From the NCBI GenBank assembly GCA_017938885.1, contig JAGBAS010000066.1, forward strand, positions 1 through 56,957: 56,957 nt of DNA, in the 5' to 3' direction. The position numbers and the translations under genes were made by a program. This document shows positions 4,199 to 23,230 of this stretch, in pieces. Below the pieces are notes generated by a model. That model saw nothing but the letters and a program-made list of their open reading frames with translations, did no database searches and had not been told where the DNA came from. The stretch comes from Clostridia bacterium. GTDB lineage: Bacteria; Bacillota; Clostridia; Oscillospirales; CAG-272. The first letter of the stretch is position 1, and every line of letters begins with the position of its first letter.

Positions 4199-5275
4199 AT
4201 GTTCGAAAAACTCATTCCCATTGCCGCCAAATACGAGGACATCGAGTTCCGTCTCTCCCTTCCCGAGACGGCGGCTGATCCCGCTGTGTACACGGCACTC
4301 ATCAAGGAATACCATAATTTAACCCCCTTGGTAGAGGCCTACCGCCTGTACAGGGGGCTGGAGAATGCCCGTGCCGAGGCTTTGGAACTGGCCTCTATGG
4401 GTGACGACCCCGAGCTGAAGGCACTGGCCGAGGACGAGGCCGAGATGCTCAAGGGCAAGCTGGCCGAGGCCGCTGACGAGCTGCAAAAGCTGCTTATCCC
4501 TAAGGATCCCGAGGACGATTGCTCGGTCATCATGGAGCTTCGCGCCGGAACGGGCGGTGAGGAGGCCGCGCTGTTCGCAGCGGATCTCTTCCGTATGTAC
4601 AGTATGTATGCCCAAAGCAACGGCTTCAAGGTCAGCGTGACCTCGGTGAATGAGACCGAGCTGGGAGGCTACCGAGAAATCACCTTCCTGGTAGAAGGCA
4701 AGGGCGCGTATTCCCGTTTCAAGTTTGAGTCGGGTGGACACCGTGTTCAACGGGTTCCCGTGACCGAATCCCAGGGACGCATCCAGACCTCGGCGGCTAC
4801 GGTTGCGGTGCTGCCCGAGGTGAGGGACGTGGAGATCGAGATCAAGGACTCTGATCTGGTTTTCGAGTCCTGCAAATCCAGCGGTGCGGGCGGTCAGCAT
4901 ATCAACAAAACCGAGTCGGCGGTGCGGCTGACACACAAGCCTACAGGTATTGTGATCGAGTGTCAGCAGGAGCGTTCGCAGTTCCAGAACAAGGACAAGG
5001 CTCTGGAAATGCTGAAGGCCAAGCTCTACCACATCAAGAAGACCGAGCAGGACGAGGCGAGAGCCTCTGCGCGTAAGTCCCAGGTGGGCTCAGGCGACCG
5101 AAGCGAAAAAATACGCACCTACAACTACCCCCAGAGCCGTGTGACCGATCACCGCATCGGGTTATCCATTTTTGACCTGGATGGGTTCATGAACGGGAAT
5201 ATTGGCTCCATGATCGAGGCTCTGACCGCCGCAGATACGGCTGAAAAGCTGAAAGAGCAGGAGGAAACCCTCTGA
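4199..5275 (+). CDS. prfA: peptide chain release factor 1
   Basis: RF1 reads UAA and UAG in the ribosomal A site and triggers peptide release. The 358-aa protein shows the stop-codon-recognition tripeptide PVT at 187-189 (RF1 type; RF2 would have SPF). The catalytic GGQ is at 231-233 inside SGAGGQHINKTES. The AAAAGG ribosome binding site is at 4184-4189. Its stop codon overlaps the start of the next gene (TGATG). In Bacillus and relatives prfA is followed by the methyltransferase gene prmC, which modifies the GGQ glutamine. Here that position is taken by a glycoside hydrolase. Confidence 0.95.
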   Translation: MFEKLIPIAAKYEDIEFRLSLPETAADPAVYTALIKEYHNLTPLVEAYRLYRGLENARAEALELASMGDDPELKALAEDEAEMLKGKLAEAADELQKLLIPKDPEDDCSVIMELRAGTGGEEAALFAADLFRMYSMYAQSNGFKVSVTSVNETELGGYREITFLVEGKGAYSRFKFESGGHRVQRVPVTESQGRIQTSAATVAVLPEVRDVEIEIKDSDLVFESCKSSGAGGQHINKTESAVRLTHKPTGIVIECQQERSQFQNKDKALEMLKAKLYHIKKTEQDEARASARKSQVGSGDRSEKIRTYNYPQSRVTDHRIGLSIFDLDGFMNGNIGSMIEALTAADTAEKLKEQEETL

Positions 5276-6573
5276 TGAAATACCGTTATTTTGATACGGA
5301 GACCGTACTGACCTTTACGGTCATGCCTCCCCTGTATCGGCCCTATTACAACGGCTGGGGCTCCAATGTCTACGCTACCTACGATCCCTTCTGTCAGGAT
5401 CCCTTCACCATCAATGCCAGCAGTACCTCGGGCTCACCCGTTATTTTGGCCTGTCATAAATTTTTCGGATTCATGAACCAGGTAGGCGGTAGCTTTTCCT
5501 ATGACGGTGCTTACCGTCTAACCGTCACCTGCCCTGCGGGACAGGGGCTTTGGGTCAACGAGGACTGCGAGCCCTTCTCCGAGTGGCTCGCCTATAACGA
5601 GGCTGTCCTGGCTACGCTTCCCCCTACGCAAAAGCCCGAAGATTTCTGGAGCGGGTTGGAATACTGTACCTGGGTGGATCAAAAGAACCGCGCCGTATCC
5701 TTGGGCTATTCTGAGGTGCAAAAGGCCATTACTTCCGATTTCGTGTATGAGTATATGCGCCGCGTGGACAAGCTGAAGCTTCCCAGGGGTAAGCTGACCA
5801 TCGATGACGGTTGGGACGTGCGCGACAAGGCTCCCGACGGTAAGCCCTGCTTTGGGAACTGGATCGTGGATCGGGAAAAATTCCCCAATATGCGCGGGCT
5901 TGTATCCGACATGAAAAACGAGGGCTTTATTCCCGGTCTTTGGTTCGCTCCCTTCACGGTCACCCCGAACTGTGAGCTGATTCGTAAGTATCCCCGGCTT
6001 TTGGGTAAGTATTTTCCCTGCGGTGCGGAGTTGGAGGAGAGCCGCAAGCTGTCCTTTCTGCTTCCCGATCCCGTTCTGGAGGACTACTACCGCAGCATAT
6101 TCGAGCCCTATATCGACATGGGCTTCAAGAAATTTAAGATGGATATGTCCTACGGCAACAAGCGGGAGATGCAGGAGCTCATGCGCTTGATGCACAAGGT
6201 CATCAAGAGCCTGGACTCCACGGTGGAGATCGAGGGACATATCGGCGATCTCTTCGCCTCACGCTACTGCGACACCGTCCGCATCAACGACGTCAATTTC
6301 AACATCCGCGATTGGCGTGCCGTCACCACCGAGCACTACAAGGTCTGTCGCTATTCCTCCCATGACAAGGTGCTGAATTTCGACCATATCGGTACCAATA
6401 CCCCCATGCCCCGCGAGGAGGATTATCTGGATCACGCGCGGATGCTCTGCCGCATGGAGGGTGGCTTCCCCTGCGTATCCCTCCTCCCAGACGTGTTTCG
6501 TGTCCATGCCGCCGACGTCCTGCGGGGGGAGCTTTTGGAATGGGAGCAGGAGAGACGCATTCGTGGCAAATGA
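5275..6573 (+). CDS. clan GH-D (GH36-like) glycoside hydrolase
   Basis: This 432-aa protein without a signal peptide looks like an alpha-galactosidase-type TIM-barrel enzyme. The barrel begins near residue 125 and shows LTIDDGWDVRD (about 175-184), GLWFAPF (221-227) and KFKMDMSYG (286-294). D290 aligns with the nucleophile of the GH36 KWDxN motif. D333 or D339 in the SRYCDTVRINDV stretch is a candidate acid/base. The substrate is unknown. The start overlaps the prfA stop by one nucleotide, so the two are translationally coupled, an odd pairing of a translation factor with a sugar hydrolase. Family identity is inferred from motifs only. Confidence 0.72.
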   Translation: MKYRYFDTETVLTFTVMPPLYRPYYNGWGSNVYATYDPFCQDPFTINASSTSGSPVILACHKFFGFMNQVGGSFSYDGAYRLTVTCPAGQGLWVNEDCEPFSEWLAYNEAVLATLPPTQKPEDFWSGLEYCTWVDQKNRAVSLGYSEVQKAITSDFVYEYMRRVDKLKLPRGKLTIDDGWDVRDKAPDGKPCFGNWIVDREKFPNMRGLVSDMKNEGFIPGLWFAPFTVTPNCELIRKYPRLLGKYFPCGAELEESRKLSFLLPDPVLEDYYRSIFEPYIDMGFKKFKMDMSYGNKREMQELMRLMHKVIKSLDSTVEIEGHIGDLFASRYCDTVRINDVNFNIRDWRAVTTEHYKVCRYSSHDKVLNFDHIGTNTPMPREEDYLDHARMLCRMEGGFPCVSLLPDVFRVHAADVLRGELLEWEQERRIRGK

Positions 6574-15686: not shown

Positions 15687-15746
15687 TTCCTCGTGAGCCT
15701 TCTCCAGCGGAGAAGGGGGACCGCGATAGCGGTGGATGAGGAGAGC
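15687..15746. repeat. dispersed palindromic repeat, copy 2
   Basis: Reverse orientation relative to copy 1: CCTTCTCC...GGAGAAGGGGGACCGCG..GCGGTGGATGAGGAGAG. The 15539-15993 gap holds the promoter above, this copy, copy 3 and a terminator, and no gene. Confidence 0.75.
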
Positions 15747-15831
15747 CGCATAAGTTTTGGTTATTGGTCTGGAAAACGCTTTTCATATATAGCCATTTTA
15801 AATTGGACACCAGTTAGAATATCTTAATCCG

Positions 15832-15900
15832 CTCTCCTCATCCACCACCTGCGGTGGTCCCCCGCATCCGCTTGCGGATGGCACCGCATGGGGAAGGCAA
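15832..15900. repeat. dispersed palindromic repeat, copy 3
   Basis: CTCTCCTCATCCACCACC...GGTGGTCCCCC, an inserted CGCATCCGCTTGCGGATG hairpin, then GGGGAAGGC. It is inverted relative to copy 2, with about 85 bp between them. Confidence 0.75.
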
Positions 15901-22702: not shown

Positions 22703-22733
22703 AAAAAAGTGCGCCCTGCAACGCAGAACGCAC
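22703..22733 (-). terminator. intrinsic terminator of the candidate RNA
   Basis: An 11-bp stem with a 3-nt loop is followed on the minus strand by six consecutive U at 22708-22703. The DUF6809-like start lies 37 nt further on. Confidence 0.85.
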
Positions 22734-22895
22734 CCAACAGTACTTCCACATTGCTGCGACACAATTTCATACATGCTTCCAAGGCAACGATTCGCATAGC
22801 GAAAAGAGTCTGTCCACACATACTAGTGAAAGTACATGCTGGCAAACTGACATTGCCTTATAAAAAAGCATATAGAGATATGAAATTGTGTCGCA
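22703..22895 (-). ncRNA. candidate structured RNA or attenuator with own promoter and terminator
   Basis: This ~193-nt transcript reads leftwards from a consensus promoter (22901-22929). Its 5' end, GCGACACAATTTCATA (22879-22894), pairs perfectly over 16 bp with 22756-22771. Inside, AAGGCAA (22853-22859) pairs with TTGCCTT (22781-22787), with further hairpins TTCGC-TAT-GCGAA and GCATGTACT/AGTATGTGT. GTACTTTCAC (22826-22835) can pair 10 bp with GTGGAAGTAC (22740-22749), outside the closing stem. It ends in an 11-bp GC-rich stem (22709-22719 / 22723-22733) and six U. It could be a free-standing RNA (6S-like size and closed rod) or a regulated leader of the DUF6809-like gene. I cannot match it to a known family. 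Confidence 0.6.
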
Positions 22896-22900
22896 AGGGT

Positions 22901-22929
22901 ATTGTACCACAAATACGGGCGGTTGTCAA
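22901..22929 (-). promoter_or_regulatory. consensus promoter of the candidate RNA / DUF6809-like unit
   Basis: Minus-strand TTGACA, 17-bp spacer ending TGG (extended -10), TACAAT. Transcription should start near 22894, at the first base of the closing stem. Confidence 0.85.
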
Positions 22930-22976: not shown

Positions 22977-23024
22977 GCCTTCCCCAGCGGGGAAGGGGGA
23001 CCGCGAAGCGGTGGATGAGGAGAG
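22977..23024. repeat. dispersed palindromic repeat, copy 6
   Basis: GCCTTCCCC-AGC-GGGGAAGGGGGACCGCG..CGCGGTGGATGAGGAGAG, same orientation as copy 2. The stretch 22930-23285 holds copies 6 and 7 facing each other and no gene. Confidence 0.78.
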
Positions 23025-23179
23025 CATTTGTAGACCAGCTTTCTGGGTGAGAGGCTAACCTTCATACCGCTTTTTTCGTTTCCGAAAATTAAAAAGATAA
23101 CCGCATCAACCGTTTTGTTACCTCCAACCGCATGGTTGTAGGAACGTAATTATACACCCGATAGGTGGACCTTCATCCG

Positions 23180-23230
23180 ATCTCCTCATCCACCGCCTCG
23201 CGGTCCCCCTTCTCCGCTGGAGAAGGCAAG
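23180..23230. repeat. dispersed palindromic repeat, copy 7
   Basis: ATCTCCTCATCCACCGC-CTCG-CGGTCCCCCTTCTCC then GGAGAAGGC. It is inverted relative to copy 6, about 155 bp away, so the pair could form a large cruciform or be ends of a lost insertion. Confidence 0.78.

Follow-up and report, generated by a model that had tools for sequence, protein, structure and literature searches.

A riboswitch-like leader RNA of a previously uncatalogued family, a probable transcription attenuator in gut Clostridia

The locus and the fold of its leader RNA

The window, that is, the whole stretch of 56,957 nucleotides analysed here (contig JAGBAS010000066.1), carries on its minus strand a compact unit in which a promoter, a highly structured RNA, an intrinsic terminator, a ribosome-binding site and the gene for a small DUF6809 protein follow one another (Table 1). 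A preliminary description of the locus had proposed a TTGACA-17-TACAAT promoter, a transcript whose first 16 nt pair with an internal segment, an inner 7-bp stem with two small hairpins, and an 11-bp terminator stem followed by six U residues. All of these features were recovered, the 7-bp stem and the two inner hairpins both appearing in the minimum-energy fold of the RNA, which is predicted to start at about position 22894. The 7-bp part of P2 joins 22871-22865 to 22779-22773, and a further 10-bp pairing within P2 continues from there. The fold reaches -84.8 kcal/mol compared with -51.2 +/- 4.2 kcal/mol for shuffled sequences (z = -7.9), and none of 200 shuffles was as good. The gene behind the RNA, earlier called DUF6809-like, is identified as such by Pfam, and its start codon lies 36 nt past the RNA end at 22703.

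Table 1. Features of the leader RNA and of the gene behind it, in window coordinates
Feature	Position	Strand	Basis or remark
-35 box TTGACA	22929-22924	minus	read directly from sequence
-10 box TACAAT, preceded by TG (TG-extended), 17-nt spacer	22906-22901	minus	read directly
Whole leader RNA, member of the new family	22894-22701	minus	covariance model R1
P1 closing stem, 5' strand, 16 perfect pairs	22894-22879	minus	minimum-energy fold; P1 co-varies in the family
P2, 5' side, 7 bp + 10 bp with internal loop	22871-22851	minus	minimum-energy fold; P2 co-varies
P3 inner hairpin, window subtype	22848-22807	minus	minimum-energy fold; P3 co-varies in the family
Pseudoknot strand inside P3 (CAGCATGTACTTTCAC)	22841-22826	minus	15 pairs with the linker
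P2, 3' side	22789-22773	minus	minimum-energy fold
P1 closing stem, 3' strand	22771-22756	minus	minimum-energy fold
Antiterminator, 5' arm (GCAATGTGGAA)	22754-22744	minus	11 bp with 22728-22718
Linker strand of the pseudoknot (GTGGAAGTACTGTTG)	22749-22735	minus	pairing with the P3 strand
Intrinsic terminator, 11-bp stem (22733-22723 with 22719-22709) and U6 (22708-22703)	22733-22703	minus	-19.1 kcal/mol
Antiterminator, 3' arm (TTCTGCGTTGC), overlaps the terminator	22728-22718	minus	11-bp pairing
Ribosome-binding site AAGGAG	22679-22674	minus	read directly
Putatively regulated gene, DUF6809 protein, 96 aa	22666-22376	minus	Pfam PF20648, E 1.1e-13

A 10-bp complementarity between the inner loop region and the linker ahead of the terminator had also been pointed out. 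This pairing is exact (22835-22826 with 22749-22740) and in fact longer than noted, joining 22841-22826 to 22749-22735 by 15 pairs with a single bulged base; its duplex energy, an estimate that excludes loop costs, is about -19 to -22 kcal/mol, and the 10-bp score was equalled in 0.75% of shuffled-linker trials. In the window subtype the GGTAAAA motif is absent, and it is the 5' arm and the loop of P3 that take part in the pseudoknot, in place of the 3' arm. The close orthologue in genome G008 keeps the pseudoknot even though its inner region is only ~70% alike. Absent from the earlier description was an 11-bp antiterminator, in which the linker pairs with part of the terminator; at -19.9 kcal/mol (terminator 3' arm blocked) it is nearly isoenergetic with the terminator itself.

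A GC-rich repeat occurs in inverted pairs at 15731-15846 and 23010-23194 of the window, with a degenerate copy at 82. Its core, GGTGGATGAGGAG, gives 5 matches where 0.08 would be expected and is REP/MITE-like, and one of the inverted pairs adjoins the RNA promoter, directly upstream.

A large RNA family in one order of Clostridia

Searches with the DNA sequence among 145 relatives returned a single close orthologue, in genome G008 (84%), together with several short matches that have the promoter, closing stem and terminator in common with the window. A covariance model, R1, built from an alignment (A2) of 10 relatives with both the window and G008 excluded, recognizes the window RNA at 62.8 bits (E 1.4e-11; genome-wide E 4.8e-10). 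R1 matches were found in 247 of 395 sampled genomes of the window's taxonomic family and, among its better genomes, in 56 of 71 genera; in the window's order they were found in 99 of 295 genomes, and across the phylum in 1 of 398, the window's own. Judged by sequence comparison, the window RNA is a member of a large, previously undescribed RNA family, and the stems, whose conservation in relatives had been named as a point on which the earlier proposal could fall, recur across hundreds of genomes. In the common layout, a sigma-70-type promoter is followed by a stem that the 5' end closes, then by an inner hairpin, the linker and an intrinsic terminator, with a ribosome-binding site directly after it. 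In 175 of 188 members the RNA start has a -10-like hexamer no more than 18 nt away, and a -35/-10 pair is present in 76 of 103 non-redundant members, with a 17-nt spacer in 66.

The family occurs in several copies per genome, in tandem arrays and also on viral contigs. At most 7 or 9 candidates were scored per genome and some genomes reach this maximum, so the copy numbers are minimum values. Genome G424 carries four tandem copies ~248 nt apart. Four tandem copies, each with its own promoter, also lie at L054:1466-2368, where copies 1-3 precede apparent decayed gene starts and an intact gene, for a Cys-rich protein, stands only behind the last. The window's genome holds a second member on contig C18 (~5119-5343, L211), of a longer and more divergent subtype, before an unrelated gene (MSHSLTPDMQKLL...). 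When the terminator pattern was run over named species genomes, at least 119 stretches matched, nearly all of them carrying the full RNA match; the matches listed were mostly from Oscillospiraceae, Ruminococcus or Clostridia MAGs, many of animal-gut origin. In viral contigs, the strict-TTCC form of this pattern found no match and a relaxed form found 17 contigs, with a full RNA match in 17 of 17; public phage and plasmid records gave no match to the queries tried. One viral contig, L194, is prophage-like: an integrase and a host-like gene on the flank were both named by eye from the sequences. At L194:8221-9003 a PASTA-like gene stands behind a family member, an arrangement reminiscent of a phage moron.

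Transcription attenuators are a known kind of regulator; this RNA family is new. Against Rfam 15, the window gave nothing at gathering score except a tRNA, the RNA region gave only sub-threshold matches at E <= 10, none of them to 6S RNA (RF00013), T-box or leader families, and ten relatives gave nothing credible, their best matches being sub-threshold. The weak matches (a sau-6072 terminator-like hit, McaS and others) fall below threshold and were judged to be chance. No description of the family was found in the literature searched, where an unnamed entry in the supplementary candidate lists of discovery papers is possible. The suggestion that this would be a new description, and the Rfam comparison, 6S included, that was to decide it, thus both came out in favour of a family not already known.

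Covariation and competing helices

Six helices recur in the family: P1, P2, P3, the pseudoknot between P3 and the linker, the antiterminator between the linker and the terminator 5' arm, and the terminator. To assess their covariation in 103 non-redundant members (<85% alike), the duplex energy of the two strands native to each member was set against that of strands swapped between members. With random-member swaps (n=103), the own partner was better in all six helices (p <= 1.7e-18), while two negative-control pairings were null and one showed a slight effect (p 0.018). When strands came only from the three members most alike, each of the six helices remained significant (p 6e-19 to 5.2e-7) and 4 of 4 negative-control pairings were null. 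With the register held constant, positions 5-7 of the pseudoknot are paired in 50/50, 50/50 and 49/50 type A members, compared with ~25 after shuffling, and the columns show GC, CG, TA and AT pairs. The antiterminator signal is weaker in this column test and clear in the swap tests, a difference that we suppose arises because its offset varies. In all helices GU exceeds AC oppositions, 2.7- to 133-fold; therefore, the minus-strand RNA is the acting form. This excess, together with the promoter/terminator logic, also disfavours a DNA-level element such as an attC-like site or inverted repeat.

The pseudoknot, antiterminator and terminator are three competing helices. Across the 103 members, antiterminator minus terminator energy is +1.35 +/- 2.8 kcal/mol, and shuffled linkers lose the antiterminator (-8.4 vs -15.4). 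An attenuator is recognized by helices of this kind, which co-vary, exclude one another and are evenly balanced. Some sequence motifs are conserved as well, although the apparent conservation of the GGTAAAA-like and TTTTTCG motifs is inflated because members were selected with these anchors. The unpaired flanks of P1 are conserved as NATA and RRCAA: ATA falls at nt 10-18 in 90 of 103 members, and RRCAA-type sequence, itself part of the member selection, follows P1'. Our best guess, drawn from this conservation, is that the flanks form a candidate binding site. The antiterminator loop, too, is almost invariant across the family.

Genes behind the RNA

A start codon with a Shine-Dalgarno-like motif lies 10-40 nt past the terminator in 67% of members, compared with 6% of 142 other terminator-like sites at the same loci; the ORF caller was lenient and was applied equally to both sets. 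The earlier suggestion of a leader is borne out by this position directly before ribosome-binding sites family-wide. The genes themselves are diverse. Among 94 downstream proteins scanned there was no common family, and those represented include PASTA, zinc-ribbon, HTH, LRR_5, SLOG (YAcAr, DprA-like), DUF6809, ABC transporter and T5orf172 proteins, phage families including superinfection exclusion, and lipoproteins (named by eye), with a few matches to defence-system models. A specific link between the RNA and DUF6809 was considered and rejected, the latter accounting for 4 of the 94. A small Cys-rich protein family (VIDITGVELTPGEPAVCLGNGEQGFECCCDECDY...; ITGVELTPGEPAVCLGNGEQGFECCCDECDY...) is often encoded behind the RNA, as at L054, L060, L061, L068, L089, L114, L144 and others. 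As the downstream genes share no pathway, no ligand can be named. It is unusual for a conserved platform to be coupled to accessory genes that are unrelated.

A model of pseudoknot-gated termination and its rivals

The RNA is very probably a cis-acting, riboswitch-like transcription attenuator of a previously uncatalogued family, given its leader position, its exclusive and conserved terminator and antiterminator, and its co-varying P3-linker pseudoknot. The earlier idea of an attenuator or riboswitch leader in which the 10-bp pairing is the alternative conformation is strongly supported: the pairing co-varies, and the antiterminator with which it competes shares sequence with the terminator. 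Comparative sequence analysis demonstrates that the family exists, that it has six helices with mutual exclusion among them and that the RNA is positioned before genes, and from it we infer that a signal acting on the P1/P2/P3 region sets the choice between conformations.

The order of folding suggests how this might work. Transcription would begin at the base of P1, and P1, P2 and the hairpin P3 would fold first; the purine-rich linker would emerge next, with two possible partners. If the linker invades P3, the resulting pseudoknot would leave the terminator 5' arm free, the terminator would form and transcription would stop (OFF). If the linker instead pairs with the terminator 5' arm, the antiterminator would allow the gene to be transcribed (ON). 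A small molecule that stabilizes the pseudoknot, such that the signal means OFF, is a tentative first guess, placed ahead of a protein or RNA partner. It is similarly plausible, if short of probable, that the family represents a novel class of riboswitch, belonging to a single order of gut Clostridia, through which a common signal sets a large and ever-changing complement of accessory, surface, defence-like and prophage genes.

The strongest of the alternatives, if a rather unlikely one, is that the same attenuator responds to a protein that binds RNA, to another RNA or to factors associated with RNA polymerase in place of a small molecule. The conserved unpaired P1 flanks and the near-invariant antiterminator loop could be protein sites, and the diversity of targets resembles that of a global protein regulator, but no candidate protein was found, and none is dedicated or linked to the RNA. 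The expression platform is also unusually conserved, beyond the norm for riboswitches, which counts against the preferred reading of a riboswitch-like attenuator.

A stand-alone regulatory sRNA, the other possibility raised at the outset, would make the gene behind it incidental. The promoter and terminator of its own, the very stable fold, a C/U-rich unpaired segment and the few tandem copies without an intact gene directly behind are in keeping with such an RNA, yet the start-codon spacing described above speaks against it, and a plain sRNA needs no terminator-overlapping antiterminator conserved by covariation; we consider it improbable. Still more so is a leader-peptide or T-box attenuator, which would share the overall terminator/antiterminator logic, since an SD-preceded ORF of >=10 codons lies inside the RNA in only 5 of 103 members, the T-box motif is found in 0 of 103, and the window region matches no T-box or leader model in Rfam at E <= 10. 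Finally, a 6S RNA or 6S paralogue, to which length and rod-like stem had earlier been likened, is scarcely credible in view of the failure to match RF00013 at E <= 10, the overlapping antiterminator, the many copies per genome and a separate 6S candidate elsewhere in the same genome (G000:C144:25027-25242, L022), whose score of 46.6 bits lies only just above the cut-off of 46.4, so that the current model may not represent 6S RNA of this lineage well.

If the family is the riboswitch class suggested above, the RNA would serve newly acquired genes as a portable means of control. Identifying the signal would reveal what these bacteria use to control acquired genes. The family has hundreds of members in one order of gut bacteria, mostly uncultured, and is absent from Rfam 15 and the literature searched; with its three competing, strongly co-varying helices, termination gated by a pseudoknot can be modelled in a clean and testable way. 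The family is similar to a multi-gene riboswitch regulon, except that the accessory genes it targets are unrelated to one another, some of them lying on prophages.

Comparison with known systems

In the fluoride riboswitch, whether transcription terminates or reads through depends in part on the formation of a pseudoknot (PMC11077080). The fluoride, ZTP and preQ1 riboswitches share pseudoknot-gated transcription termination with the RNA described here; they differ in being shorter aptamers with known ligands, whereas the new RNA has neither an Rfam match nor a named ligand. The likeness to 6S RNA (RF00013) is confined to the ~190-nt length and the long closing stem, and differs in the missing match and in the genome's own 6S candidate on C144. 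T-box leaders carry a conserved antiterminator that is exclusive with the terminator and stand before many genes, as does the new RNA, which differs in having no T-box motif and no Rfam match. The c-di-GMP riboswitches (GEMM-I/II) occur in many copies per genome before unrelated genes, prophage genes included, and act through terminator control. The new family resembles them in its multiple copies, unrelated genes and terminator control; however, it matches them in neither sequence nor structure, and it rests on a pseudoknot between linker and hairpin and on a terminator that is itself conserved.
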